DNA from: Magnetococcales bacterium
GTDB lineage: Bacteria > Pseudomonadota > Magnetococcia > Magnetococcales > JADFWU01
Direction of reading: 5' to 3'
Assembly: GCA_015234045.1 (NCBI GenBank)
Contig: JADFWU010000030.1
Location: forward strand, 1-38,957
DNA: 38,957 bases
This document shows positions 6,660-17,643 of the stretch, piece after piece (position 1 is the stretch's first letter; every line of letters begins with the position of its first letter). Under the pieces are notes generated by a model, which did no database searches, was not told where the DNA came from, and saw nothing but the letters and a program-made list of their open reading frames with translations. The translations under genes were made by a program, and so were the position numbers.

Positions 6660-6744
6660 TGGTGCGAAAGGGGGGAGTCGAACCCCCACGCCTTACGGCA
6701 CTGGATCCTAAATCCAGGGCGTCTACCAGTTCCGCCACTTTCGC
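6660..6744 (-). tRNA. tRNA-Leu (anticodon UAG)
   Basis: An 85-nt class II tRNA with an encoded CCA. The anticodon stem CTGGA/TCCAG encloses loop TTTAGGA with UAG, reading CUN leucine codons. A variable arm (GTGCCGTAAGGCGT) and the T-loop GTTCGACTC are evident. It is the last member of the Pro-Arg-His-Leu series but is separated from tRNA-His by its own terminator and a 280-nt spacer. Confidence 0.96.
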
Positions 6745-6970
6745 ATAACTTTATTCCTCTAACATTTTTTAGAGGGTGAAGACCGATTGAGTGCGGTCTT
6801 TATCGTACTGTCCTCTGCATATCCACACAGCGGACCTATTTCAAACAATGGAATTCTAATTCACACAGTGTCACTGCCCATTAATGGAAAAAGTGTCTCA
6901 CCCATTCCAAAACCATGAATATCACATGGTGCAATTGACACTCACTTCGCAAGCAACCCGAGCTTACACG

Positions 6971-7008
6971 AAAAAACCCGGCCTAAGCAATTCTTATAGG
7001 GCCGGGTT
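6971..7008 (-). terminator. intrinsic terminator after tRNA-His
   Basis: On the minus strand a 9-bp GC-rich stem AACCCGGCC/GGCCGGGTT is followed by further T residues (TTTTTT run in total). It begins 18 nt past the 3' end of tRNA-His and ends the Pro-Arg-His transcript. Confidence 0.8.
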
Positions 7009-7026
7009 CACGAATCTTTGGGAAGA

Positions 7027-7103
7027 TGGGGCGAAGGACGAGATTCGAACTCGCGACCGCCGGAGCCACAATCCAGTGCTCTACCTACTGAGCTACCTCC
7101 GCC
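7027..7103 (-). tRNA. tRNA-His (anticodon GUG)
   Basis: A 77-nt tRNA including an encoded CCA. The anticodon loop TTGTGGC carries GUG. The extra 5' G(-1) opposite discriminator C73 is genomically encoded, the identity element of bacterial tRNA-His. Confidence 0.96.
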
Positions 7104-7244
7104 ATAACCCCTTGCCTTAACCCGTCCATTTATCACGGGACAGCGTCTTTATAAACCAATCCCTTCAGAATAACAACGGCCCTTCTGGTTAAAGCTCACC
7201 CTTTTTTCAAACGGTCACTGCCCAGAAGGCACCACATTTGAAAA

Positions 7245-7321
7245 TGGTACGCCCGGCAGGACTCGAACCTGCAACCTACGGCTTAGAAGGCCGTTGCTCT
7301 ATCCAGTTGAGCTACAGGCGC
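7245..7321 (-). tRNA. tRNA-Arg (anticodon UCU)
   Basis: A complete 77-nt cloverleaf with encoded CCA; anticodon loop CTTCTAA carries UCU, reading AGA/AGG arginine codons. It is the second member of the Pro-Arg-His transcript. Confidence 0.96.
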
Positions 7322-7351
7322 AAAACCGCCTTTTACTGCCTTTTGAAAAAA

Positions 7352-7429
<78 letters not shown>

Positions 7430-14008: not shown

Positions 14009-15115
14009 ATGGCCAATGATGCCCGTTCAATTCGTCGTTTTTTATCTGCTATTCCCGCGCACTGCCCGGTAGATAGCCTGGACTATCTGCACCTGCTTAA
14101 TTGGCCTGCGTCACTGCCACATCCGCTGGAATTTCTAACTGAGCACGGTTTCAGCGGCACACTGTCGGCTGGTCGTATCTCTGTTGCCCAGCAGGCGGAG
14201 CCTTACCTAAACAGACTGTCCACCATTGTCGTCAGCGATCACCCTTCTGACAACAAACCATCCAATGGCACTCTGTTGGAGCTACCCCAAGGCCGTACCG
14301 CTGCTTTAATGACCATTCAGGCGGGCCTTGATGCCTTAACGCCAAATGCCCGTCTATGGCTATTCGGTAACCGTGACACCGGCATTATGCGTATTGCAAA
14401 AAGTTTTTCCAACGTAGAGACAGTGTTCTATAAAGGCCACTATCGACTACTCTCTTTGAGCACGGAGTCACAGTGCCTGGACACAGGTTTTGAAGAACAG
14501 CGCAAAAAACTGGCCAAATCGGACTTTTTTCACCACATGACCGTGAAAGGGTTATCCCTGGCTACACTGCCGGGCACCTTCTCATGGCAAGAACCCGATT
14601 CCGCCTCTCTCATGCTGCTTGAAACAATTCAAGCACAGCAGGAGATTAAAGGCCCTGTTTTAGACTGGGGATGCGGCTGCGGCCTTCTGGGCCTTTCTCT
14701 TGCCATGACTGATCAACAGCTTGAGGTTACCCTGGCGGATGACCAATGGTCTGCCATTCGATCCACTGAACGCGCCATTCAGCTCAACGATCAATTGGGA
14801 CTCAGTGAACGTTGCACAGTGATCGCAGAAAATGGCATCGGCCCAAAACTTTCGGGCAGCCGCTTTCGTACAGTGATCACCAACCCGCCTTTCCATCGTG
14901 GTAACCGAATGGACCGCGAAACCACAAATCTGTTCATTCAACAGGTCAGCTCGGCCATGCATCTCAAAGGAACACTTTGGCTGGTGGGCAATCAATTTCT
15001 CAACTACACACCTTTGCTGGAAGCCGCATTCAAAGTGGTTTCAAAGCCCGCTGAAAATGAACGCTTTTGCGTGTGGCAGGCACAGGGTGTCCGATTGAAT
15101 AAATCACGCTACTGA
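14009..15115 (+). CDS. rsmC: 16S rRNA guanine-N2 methyltransferase RsmC-like
   Basis: A 368-residue SAM-dependent methyltransferase with two related Rossmann-like halves, as in RsmC/RlmG. The C-terminal catalytic half has motif I VLDWGCGCGLLGLSLA (near 217-232) and the catalytic NPPFHRG motif (near 294-300) used for exocyclic amino methylation. RsmC modifies G1207 of 16S rRNA; RlmG (G1835 of 23S) is the close alternative. Its 3' end overlaps the convergent RNA ligase gene by 7 nt, so this is the junction where the accessory operon begins. Confidence 0.85.
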   Translation: MANDARSIRRFLSAIPAHCPVDSLDYLHLLNWPASLPHPLEFLTEHGFSGTLSAGRISVAQQAEPYLNRLSTIVVSDHPSDNKPSNGTLLELPQGRTAALMTIQAGLDALTPNARLWLFGNRDTGIMRIAKSFSNVETVFYKGHYRLLSLSTESQCLDTGFEEQRKKLAKSDFFHHMTVKGLSLATLPGTFSWQEPDSASLMLLETIQAQQEIKGPVLDWGCGCGLLGLSLAMTDQQLEVTLADDQWSAIRSTERAIQLNDQLGLSERCTVIAENGIGPKLSGSRFRTVITNPPFHRGNRMDRETTNLFIQQVSSAMHLKGTLWLVGNQFLNYTPLLEAAFKVVSKPAENERFCVWQAQGVRLNKSRY

Positions 15116-15807
15116 GTATTTGTGCGTTGTGCCTGCATTTGATTCCACTGAATGTGACGATGACTCCAGTGGGTATCAATAGTTTGGGTAAACTCAGACC
15201 GGACTAATTTAGCCCGACTGTCACACCAATCAGATAATTCCTGACGGATAACAATACCTTCCAGCGCACCTTGACGGAAATGACTCCCTTTAACCTCTAA
15301 AAGAGCAATGAGTTCAGCCTTGGTAGCCGTACCTTGAAAAATCATGGGGGGCACAGGTAGCATTAATGAATTTGCAAGCTCATTGCGCCTCTGAGAACTC
15401 CAGAATCTCTCGCACTTCCTATCAAAAACATCAAAAACTAAAAACCAATCCGGCAATGCATCATAGTCTAAGGAGTGCTTTACTGCACACCATTCACCAA
15501 ACAGAATAAGCTCACTATCGAGTTGATCAATTAGGGAATAGCGGTGTTGATCCACCCATGCATTAAGACGAGAAAATTGCCCTTTAAATGGCTCAATCAG
15601 GTACTGACCACGATTTTGAAACTGTATGACACCTTCCTGAGATAGGGATATTCCCAGATTAGCACCATCAAGTTTTTCTTCTACTACCACCGCCCTTGAC
15701 AGCAATGCTTCCACTTCAGTGAGAGACAGTTTTTTATCGTCCCGAAGTTTTTCTTTTCCCAACCAAGCAAGATGTGGTGTATGTGGGAAACGGAAAAAAT
15801 CGCTCAT
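15109..15807 (-). CDS. RNA ligase family protein (Rnl2-like nucleotidyltransferase)
   Basis: A 232-residue ATP-dependent RNA ligase-type protein. The nucleotidyltransferase motifs appear in order: motif I EEKLDGAN with the predicted AMP-accepting K45, FQNRG (63-67), motif III LFGEW (102-106), IIIa FLVFDVFD (122-129), motif IV EGIVIR (183-188) and motif V RAKLVR (198-203). The family adenylates itself and then seals 5'-phosphate to 3'-OH ends in nicked or broken RNA. No kinase, phosphatase or cyclic-phosphodiesterase domain is attached. The start ATG overlaps the stop of the PIN nuclease gene by 4 nt (ATGA), indicating coupled translation. The RNA target is unknown; DNA sealing cannot be excluded. 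Confidence 0.88.
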   Translation of the reverse strand: MSDFFRFPHTPHLAWLGKEKLRDDKKLSLTEVEALLSRAVVVEEKLDGANLGISLSQEGVIQFQNRGQYLIEPFKGQFSRLNAWVDQHRYSLIDQLDSELILFGEWCAVKHSLDYDALPDWFLVFDVFDRKCERFWSSQRRNELANSLMLPVPPMIFQGTATKAELIALLEVKGSHFRQGALEGIVIRQELSDWCDSRAKLVRSEFTQTIDTHWSHRHIQWNQMQAQRTNTQ

Positions 15808-16340
15808 GGCCTATTTTTCTTCGCTTGCCATTTTTTATACAACCACGTCTCAATCAGTTGCTCCACTTCTACCCCATGTTCTATCAGTACATCAGCGCAA
15901 TCAAACCAATCCGTATCACAGGCATTTGTCAATTTACAGGGATGCCCCTCACGTTTTGCAGCCAAAACGGCGGCAACCATTTTGCGATCTGCACGATCAG
16001 TGACTGACGTTGAGAGAGATTCTTGCAAAACTGCGTGACCATCTGAATCCGTAGACAGGCTTATCCATACAACTTCACCACGGTCATGTTTGGCCATCAT
16101 AGAAAGGAGGCCGAAATCCTGTTCTGTCAACTTATTCTGATATTCTCCACAAATAAGCCAATCCCAGTCCATAACTGCATGACGTTCGGAATCTTTTTCA
16201 AAGTCTATCAGCCAATCTAACACATGTTTCCGTAAACTTTGTTCTTCTACAGGCGTTGCTCCAGGTTGAAAGGGAGAACCATCATCTGCTGCACTGGCGA
16301 CAATCAATACATTTGTATCCACAACGCGTGCGTCAATCAT
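15804..16340 (-). CDS. PIN-domain nuclease-like protein
   Basis: A 178-residue protein with the acidic constellation of PIN ribonucleases: D8 in VVDTNVL, E66 in CGEYQNK, D118 (with D115) in TDRADRKMVAA, and D142/D144 in CDTDW. These would bind the two divalent metals. The family cleaves single-stranded RNA or tRNA and leaves 5'-phosphate and 3'-OH ends; VapC toxins are the best-known members. It is longer than VapC (about 130 residues) because of an insert after strand 1 (residues 15-55). No VapB-like antitoxin is next to it; instead it sits between an ATPase (8-nt overlap) and an RNA ligase (4-nt overlap). Confidence 0.8.
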   Translation of the reverse strand: MIDARVVDTNVLIVASAADDGSPFQPGATPVEEQSLRKHVLDWLIDFEKDSERHAVMDWDWLICGEYQNKLTEQDFGLLSMMAKHDRGEVVWISLSTDSDGHAVLQESLSTSVTDRADRKMVAAVLAAKREGHPCKLTNACDTDWFDCADVLIEHGVEVEQLIETWLYKKWQAKKNRP

Positions 16341-17643
16341 GTGCTATTTCTTTCAACCGCTGCCCACGGGCAAGGGCCTTAGCACGGGCCAAGGCCCTTG
16401 CCCGTGCTTCTCCCACGCTGTCTCCAAAAAAATTTGGTGGCCAATTTCTTACTGCACCAAATTCATCAACATCCAAAGGACGTAAGACAGCATCAGATTT
16501 ATCTCGTTCAACAAAAAACATAGAGCACGTATTCGTATCAGTTTCATCTTGAGCAATTAGAGTCTGCATCCGGCGAAACAAATGCTCAGAATGGGTCTCA
16601 ACCAAAAACTGAATTTCTCGTTCGCGACTAACGTAAAAAAACATCTCTGCCAATAAAGACTGAGCCAAAGGGTGTAGGTGGATTTCTGGCTCTTCCAAAA
16701 TAATAGTGCTTCCTCGTTGAGCAAAATAGGCCACTGCCAATACGGGTAAGACCTGAGAAACACCAATACCAACATCTCGAAGGTTTGCTACGACACCATC
16801 ACGATGCACGACAACCTCATAGCGGTTGGAACCGCCCAGTTGACGTACCTCCAACTTTTCAGCAACATCCATCCGACGAAGCCATTCAGAAACACCATCA
16901 ATAACCTGACGATGCTCTTCTCCTCGGATCAGAGCACTGGATAGCAAAACATCAATGGCCTTATGCCCATCGCTTCCAATCTCGCCAGGCTTGGACTTAT
17001 TCCATACATAGTCCCGCTCAGGTTTACGGCGAAGCGGTCCCAAATAGACGATACCTTCAAGTTCTCGACGGATTGCCAGACTTATATCTTCAACCAATTC
17101 ACCATCTTGACCAAGATGCCGAATAGCCTCTGAAGAAAAAGCAATAGACCTTTCTGGAGCAAACCCCCGCCCCTTTCCTCTTGTTTGCGTTTCATCATCA
17201 ACGTACAAAGCGTAGGCATCACGCTGACTGCGTTTGACTCGGAAATGATGCTCAGCAGAAGAAAGGATAAGCTCCCTTATTACTATAGCTCCTCTGGAAT
17301 CAGTTCCGTAAATGCAACGAAAACCACCTTGGGATACACGTTCCCCCATATTCTGACGTTCGAATTGAAAAGCCAATTCAAACGCGCGTTTGCCTTTTGT
17401 ACCTGATCTATAAATGTTGTGAAAATCACCAAAAGTGAATAGATCACTGACCTCATCACCACCCAAATTTAGATGTATGGTGCGATCAGGTGACTGGATT
17501 GTCTGTTTTAGGAGAAGCAGGCTTTGAATGAGAGAAGATTTTCCAGACGAATTTGTACCCAGCAAAATTGTGACCGGAGTCATCGGAATCTCACTGGTAT
17601 CACGCCATATCTTGAAATTTTTCAGTCGCAAGAGTGATAGCAT
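16333..17643 (-). CDS. RecF/OLD-like AAA ATPase with DUF3696-type C-terminus
   Basis: A 436-residue ABC-class ATPase. Walker A GTNSSGKS (29-36) follows the typical LKNFKIWRDT start. A signature-like DVGIGVSQVLPVL lies at 290-302, Walker B STIILEEPEIHLHP at 312-325 and the switch ETHSEH at 349-354. The region after 376 (FFVERD...GAVRNWPPNFF) looks like a DUF3696 tail. Such ATPases act as sensors or activators in several anti-phage and toxin pairs (family knowledge). The last 25 residues are an Ala-Arg-Leu repeat encoded by a palindrome (16365-16406), an apparent add-on. The start has AGAGG 9 nt upstream, lying in a predicted hairpin. First gene of the ATPase-PIN-ligase operon; base composition looks slightly more AT-rich than neighbours by eye. 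Confidence 0.88.
   Translation of the reverse strand: MLSLLRLKNFKIWRDTSEIPMTPVTILLGTNSSGKSSLIQSLLLLKQTIQSPDRTIHLNLGGDEVSDLFTFGDFHNIYRSGTKGKRAFELAFQFERQNMGERVSQGGFRCIYGTDSRGAIVIRELILSSAEHHFRVKRSQRDAYALYVDDETQTRGKGRGFAPERSIAFSSEAIRHLGQDGELVEDISLAIRRELEGIVYLGPLRRKPERDYVWNKSKPGEIGSDGHKAIDVLLSSALIRGEEHRQVIDGVSEWLRRMDVAEKLEVRQLGGSNRYEVVVHRDGVVANLRDVGIGVSQVLPVLAVAYFAQRGSTIILEEPEIHLHPLAQSLLAEMFFYVSREREIQFLVETHSEHLFRRMQTLIAQDETDTNTCSMFFVERDKSDAVLRPLDVDEFGAVRNWPPNFFGDSVGEARARALARAKALARGQRLKEIAHD
16365..16406. repeat. 16-bp perfect palindrome at the 3' end of the ATPase gene
   Basis: CACGGGCAAGGGCCTT (16365-16380) and AAGGCCCTTGCCCGTG (16391-16406) are perfect reverse complements around a 10-nt loop. 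It is translated in frame as Ala-Arg-Leu-Ala-Lys repeats of the ATPase C-terminus and ends 25 nt before the PIN gene start. It is much more GC-rich than the flanking operon and resembles a REP-type insertion. In the mRNA it would form a very stable hairpin between the ATPase and nuclease cistrons. Confidence 0.9.

Follow-up and report, generated by a model that had tools for sequence, protein, structure and literature searches.

A Magnetococcales ATPase-PIN nuclease-RNA ligase module as a candidate ligase-bearing form of HEC-03

Why would a single operon encode both an enzyme predicted to cut RNA and an enzyme predicted to join it? This question is raised by a contig of a Magnetococcales bacterium (JADFWU010000030.1, assembly GCA_015234045.1), which we analysed at its full length of 38,957 nucleotides (nt) and refer to as the window. 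The minus strand carries consecutive genes for an ATPase of 436 amino acids (16333..17643), a putative PIN nuclease of 178 amino acids (15804..16340) and a putative ATP-dependent RNA ligase of 232 amino acids (15109..15807). A first-pass annotation, made by a model from the sequence, had described three minus-strand genes with overlaps of 8 and 4 nt; the open reading frames confirmed this, with 8 nt shared by the ATPase and PIN genes and 4 nt by the PIN and ligase genes. Judged by their sequences, the ATPase and PIN are already known as the PADLOC candidate HEC-03, to which the ligase adds a third component. We estimate a probability of roughly 55% that the trio is a ligase-bearing form of this candidate defence system, in which ATPase-gated PIN cleavage of host RNA would be resealed by a dedicated ligase.

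The ATPase matched the Pfam families AAA_15 (7e-23) and AAA_21 (3.5e-21) and, in its C-terminal part, DUF3696 (2.5e-9), with no Toprim domain, in agreement with the earlier description of a RecF/OLD-like ATPase with a DUF3696 tail. Residues 1-417 aligned with positions 1-445 of the 458 in the PADLOC HEC-03B profile (2.3e-85), and the closest solved sequence was that of an OLD-family protein (6p74, 1e-8). We classify the protein from these matches as a RecF/OLD/ABC-type, HEC-03B-like ATPase. The Walker A motif GTNSSGKSS (residues 29-37; 17533..17559, minus strand) has G34 and K35 in 81/82 relatives, and alignment of 82 relatives places the Walker B acidic pair at E317-E318 (16690..16695, minus strand), with E318 at the position of the catalytic glutamate. 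Walker A and H351 are intact in the window ATPase.

The PIN protein had no Pfam match up to an E-value of 1. Pfam, NCBIfam and comparison of the sequence with the PDB gave nothing usable for its identification, the match to 6wvs (0.0016) being to a designed TIM barrel, and Foldseek alone found no match for the model at E <= 0.001. The predicted structure has a predicted local distance difference test score (pLDDT) of 96.6, and its PDB matches at Z >= 8 were VapC toxins and other PIN proteins, including VapC21 (Z 9.7, root-mean-square deviation 2.7, 121 residues). The model indicates that the 178-amino-acid protein is a PIN nuclease with a VapC-like fold and an acidic cluster. The match to PADLOC HEC-03A was marginal (1.4e-6), and the window genome fell below the 1e-6 cut-off in a six-frame search; PINs from relatives in the same trio matched HEC-03A at 1e-26 to 1e-28, and intermediates connect them to the window protein (L008, 1.3e-10). 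The acidic set had been called complete. Four positions, all encoded on the minus strand, bore this out, namely D8 (16317..16319; 91/91 aligned relatives), E66 (16143..16145; 93/95), D118 (15987..15989; 94/95) and D142 (15915..15917; D in 87 and E in 8 of 95), but position 144 was not conserved, with K in 57 of the 95 and D in the other 38; the window PIN is a divergent member of the D144 class. A small VapB antitoxin gene was not among the partners of the PIN gene, which are the 436-amino-acid ATPase and the ligase. In the PLSDB plasmids checked, the PIN gene is annotated as "hypothetical protein". PIN nucleases carry out metal-dependent cleavage of RNA that leaves 5'-phosphate and 3'-OH ends, and VapC-type PIN toxins cut tRNA or rRNA to give ligatable ends.

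The ligase matched the Pfam family RNA_ligase (PF09414, 7e-35), and its predicted structure (pLDDT 91.5) resembled the Naegleria RNA ligase (Z 16.9) and T4 Rnl2 (Z 15.9), with DNA ligases at Z 10-12. The adenylation lysine K45 of the motif EEKLDGAN (15673..15675, minus strand) is present in 97/97 relatives, as are D47, G48, N50, E105, E183, G184 and K200; the remaining motif residues checked are present in 96-97 of the 97. The protein consists of a nucleotidyltransferase (NTase) core with motifs I, III, IV and V, and a short conserved tail with invariant F206, H213, W214 and N222. The earlier assignment to the Rnl2 type therefore held for the NTase core and K45 but not for the C-terminal domain of Rnl2, which is not present; the ligase is Rnl2/Rnl5-like and not T4 Rnl2 proper. 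GenBank phage ligases were less than 31% identical to it among the matches listed.

The triplet, first described from the window alone, recurs in other genomes. In a scan of GTDB genome contigs, the ligase had at least 565 relatives, of which we analysed the best 80 loci, ranked by similarity to the window ligase. All three genes were present in the same order in 60 of these 80 (in 56 of the 71 with at least 2.2 kb upstream), which rules out chance neighbours; the rest had PIN and ligase (14), ligase only (5) or ligase with a different ATPase (1), such that a PIN was present in 74/80. Spacing was almost always -22 to +12 nt between ATPase and PIN genes, and -7 to +15 nt between PIN and ligase genes, and the median ratio of nonsynonymous to synonymous substitution rates was 0.13-0.15 for each of the three genes, indicating purifying selection. 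The ATPase, PIN and ligase genes make up a conserved module that is translationally coupled and in which each of the three enzymes has an intact active site.

Within the class of the window genome, sampled through 48 genomes, the trio occurs in the same order in G042 and G040, an ATPase-PIN pair without ligase in G031, and a decayed remnant in G044. The remnant (L011:7075-7401) lies between surface-repeat and GAF-type genes that border the intact G040 and G042 trios. A phylum-wide sample added trios in G162, G178, G081, G111, G028, G020 and G006; outside Pseudomonadota, the distribution is known from the contig scan and from a single Rhodococcus plasmid. Searches with the PIN gave 14 ATPase-PIN loci, the window counted, with a ligase in 10 and none in 4 (G031, G349, G195, G059). 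Versions with PIN and ligase and no ATPase also occur (L059, L073, L082, L084, L088). ATPase-less pairs named in Burkholderiales are the first four of these together with L092, L097 and L098; in those four, the pair and an ExeA-type ATPase gene are divergently oriented, a stable locus among the members inspected, and in Pseudohongiella an ATPase-less pair lies at a different locus. Because ATPase-less and ligase-less versions both occur, neither the ATPase nor the ligase is obligatory.

We next compared how the three genes vary among 77 trios, mostly picked by ligase similarity, a choice that narrowed the ligase range and weakened the correlation figures. In this set, ATPase and PIN identities correlated strongly with each other (Spearman 0.73; 0/500 permutations), and ligase identity correlated weakly (0.15), with a median ligase identity of 0.60 versus 0.35 and 0.31 for the other two genes. 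PIN-selected loci gave the same contrast: with close relatives of the window excluded, ligases were 45-55% and PINs 23-25% identical to those of the window. ATPases and PINs formed two matched classes, E318 with D144 and Q318 with K144, in 74/77 trios. These classes interleave on the ligase tree, requiring 19-23 changes, of which 10-11 are forced by supported branches. Two Variovorax species (L064 and L086) share 88.6% DNA identity across 2414 nt that take in the ligase and its downstream flank, and 89% in a stretch ~5 kb upstream, yet identity is 33% between their ATPases and 21% between their PINs. The similarity begins sharply at the ligase start, and an equally sharp break was observed in L045/L050 and L051/L038. 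These comparisons indicate that the ATPase-PIN pair has repeatedly been swapped ahead of a conserved ligase. From the exchange of this pair beside a ligase that remains in place, we infer a need for ATPase and PIN to match, and a ligase that recognises a feature common to different PINs.

Two loci place the ligase family behind other genes. In Pseudomonas alcaligenes (L065:4814-6132), it follows an XRE-IrrE gene and an unrelated PIN (PF01850, weak), possibly a second cut-and-reseal unit. In L039:3975-6741, it follows another AAA ATPase and a 190-amino-acid protein with no family match, and the gene after the ligase (6698-7420) looks DUF3800-like by eye.

We infer the gating, the target, the end chemistry and the phage protection of the proposed ligase-bearing HEC-03 as follows. 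By analogy with AriA/AriB in PARIS, the OLD/ABC-type ATPase would act as a switch, keeping the PIN inactive until a phage or stress signal leads to its release or activation; such gating of the PIN by the ATPase is probable, and the tight co-variation of the two fits a physical pair. The PIN would make metal-dependent cuts in host RNA (tRNA or rRNA, as for VapC), leaving 5'-phosphate and 3'-OH ends that the ligase would join directly, with neither kinase nor phosphatase. Resealing would limit leaky cleavage and let survivors recover, and the common feature seen by the ligase would most simply be broken host RNA of a single class. The first-pass annotation had reasoned that no end-healing kinase or phosphatase is needed, and consistent with this the trio includes none. 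Members of a weaker-scoring ligase group in G108, G221 and G333, of the same phylum, adjoin a protein with HD and AAA_33-kinase domains. A ligase without a healing enzyme fits PIN end chemistry, and the HD-kinase protein beside sister ligases is expected where ends need healing.

Several observations weigh against this proposal. The E318 position is Gln in 48/82 relatives of the DUF3696 ATPase, which suggests slow or absent hydrolysis in one ATPase class. The ligase ends ~30 residues past motif V, without the C-terminal domain of T4 Rnl2; T4 Rnl2 that lacks this domain is impaired in joining 5'-phosphate ends, and an NTase-only ligase may need a partner protein for sealing. Among ligase-less versions (L009, L028, L156, L157), L009 keeps an intact PIN, and no ligase of the window family was found elsewhere in the genomes of G031, G349 or G059; the fourth such genome, G195, has only a ligase of the weaker-scoring, longer group. 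The ATPase-less pairs of Burkholderiales form an 8-member clade, with L106 truncated by a contig end, and persist at their stable locus. No recognisable defence genes adjoin the trio in the window, and the selection of most of the 77 trios by ligase similarity limits what their correlations can say.

We considered what else the trio might do. The PIN could trim a specific RNA that the ligase then circularises or splices, with an ATPase that merely regulates. HARP, a PIN RNase P, and the ligase Rnl3 offer a precedent, since the two co-occur and are often adjacent (PMC12153264), and PIN-ligase pairs that lack the ATPase persist stably at one chromosomal locus in Burkholderiales and at another in Pseudohongiella; such pairs fit RNA processing or toxin-antidote behaviour equally well. 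However, a patchy, plasmid- and island-borne distribution with a decayed copy in G044 (L011) does not suit a fixed substrate, nor does the repeated exchange of the PIN ahead of the same ligase. The PIN also has no Pfam match, and hence none to the HARP family, and its fold is closer to VapC21 (Z 9.7) than to HARP (Z 6.6). HARP and Rnl3 resemble the trio as a PIN RNase that co-occurs with an ATP-dependent RNA ligase (PMC12153264), but they belong to other PIN and ligase families, lack an ATPase, and usually lie in opposite orientation with no overlapping operon. We therefore regard a processing role as unlikely. About equally unlikely is that the ligase is a general host enzyme of RNA repair, countering ribotoxins and tolerating various nuclease neighbours, and not a specific antidote. 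The ligase is the most conserved gene of the trio and occurs alone in L076, L100 and L102, behind XRE-IrrE/PIN in L065 and behind another AAA protein in L039, all of which a general enzyme would accommodate; against this, the PIN carried by 74 of the 80 nearest loci is coupled to the ligase within a few nt.

Fixed order, coupling and conservation are also compatible with a ligase that takes part in the attack, turning cleaved RNAs of phage or host into useless joined products, such that PIN and ligase together are more damaging than the PIN alone. We consider this improbable: ligase-less HEC-03 loci occur, and known ligases in such conflicts are repair enzymes (PMC7824862). Most improbable of all is that the nuclease acts on DNA, its association with a ligase being indirect. 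There are PIN-like folds that cut DNA, and DNA-targeting systems are frequent among the neighbours of the trio, but the best fold matches of the PIN are VapC ribonucleases, and the ligase is closer to RNA ligases (Z 16.9 and 15.9) than to DNA ligases (Z 10-12).

The trio had been taken for an undescribed system. This did not hold for the ATPase and PIN, which share families and gene order with HEC-03 (HEC-03A, the PIN, and HEC-03B, the ATPase), but PADLOC contains no model of the ligase, and in the library searched we found no paper on the trio; the HEC preprint may nevertheless mention the ligase. The loci closest to the HEC-03 seeds, L156 and L157, are ligase-less. HEC stands for Hma-embedded candidate, and several HECs, including HEC-06, are active in assays (PMC12988326); we found nothing in the literature on antiviral activity of HEC-03. 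PARIS likewise combines an OLD/ABC-type ATPase sensor, AriA, with a separate RNase effector protein, AriB, a tRNase that AriA holds inactive as long as no phage trigger is bound (PMC12409363). By contrast with the PIN of the trio, AriB is a Toprim protein, PARIS has no ligase, and the trio ATPase matches AriA models at 5e-25, weak beside 2e-85 for HEC-03B. Systems such as PrrC/RloC with phage Pnk-Rnl1, and Pnkp-Rnl-Hen1, share with the trio RNA damage in conflict followed by repair by an RNA ligase; unlike in the trio operon, which has no healing enzyme, their ends need healing first. In L205, L206 and L207, a related PF09414-type ligase is paired with an HD and AAA_33-kinase (HD-Pnk-like) protein, a partner of the end-healing type and not a PIN.

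We also recorded the surroundings of the trio. The trio is horizontally mobile: copies were found on plasmids of Aeromonas salmonicida and Rhodococcus (both typed conjugative), Azotobacter and Tistrella, and in three predicted viral contigs of IMG/VR (L110, L112, L113). A tblastn search of PLSDB found none with the PIN as query and four trios with the ligase, and a DNA search for an E. coli instance found none. Defence neighbours of individual loci include a short prokaryotic Argonaute with a REase-PNTD partner (L045, L064), DrmMI/type IIG (L042, L053), a DruE-like helicase (L055), type I restriction-modification (L041), a PglX-like gene (L026), HmaB with a PLD-helicase (L024), HmaB (L025) and HNH restriction-like genes (L086). 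The suggested location in defence islands thus applies to relatives and plasmids but not to the window copy; likewise, a setting among Hma or other defence genes, by which HECs were found but which is outside their gene-content definition, was not seen in the window and was present in L024-L026, L041, L045 and L064. In Variovorax, two consecutive HNH_2 genes follow the trio (L086:6693-8410, L064:6657-8407), one resembling a phosphorothioate-DNA restriction enzyme, and a related gene adjoins a ligase fragment in L211.

In the window, the trio is flanked by rsmC-type, oxidoreductase and ankyrin genes. The rsmC-type methyltransferase gene (14009..15115, plus strand; Pfam MTS), host context outside the module, had been placed 7 nt away; in fact, the ligase stop overlaps this convergent gene by 7 nt. 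The gcvT-like/NMO/rsmC run is kept across Magnetococcales, and the oxidoreductase of the window was not seen in the flanking stretches examined there. In genomes that possess the trio, PIN and rsmC matches lie on separate contigs, and the trio is thus an accessory insertion. The 3' end of the ATPase gene contains a 19-nt inverted repeat, 95% perfect with a 4-nt loop (16365-16406), which encodes an ALARAKALARG-type insertion not present in aligned ATPase relatives; no second copy was found in the genome.

In conflicts with phage, RNA repair is usually seen as the phage's answer to a host nuclease, as with T4 Pnk/Rnl1 against PrrC. Here, a single host operon would supply both the nuclease and a ligase suited to the ends it leaves, so that the idea of a defence that is reversible and not suicidal could be tested directly, and a candidate in a widely used defence annotation tool would gain a third component. 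We tentatively propose that reversal is built in, with a resident ligase that serves interchangeable, matched ATPase-nuclease cassettes and repairs self-inflicted RNA breaks without end healing, a proposal we hold less firmly than the assignment to HEC-03. If it is true, cells would be armed with different sensor-nucleases and the same repair enzyme throughout. The ATPase-PIN swaps ahead of a constant ligase offer a natural experiment on how sensors and effectors are matched and how targets are chosen.

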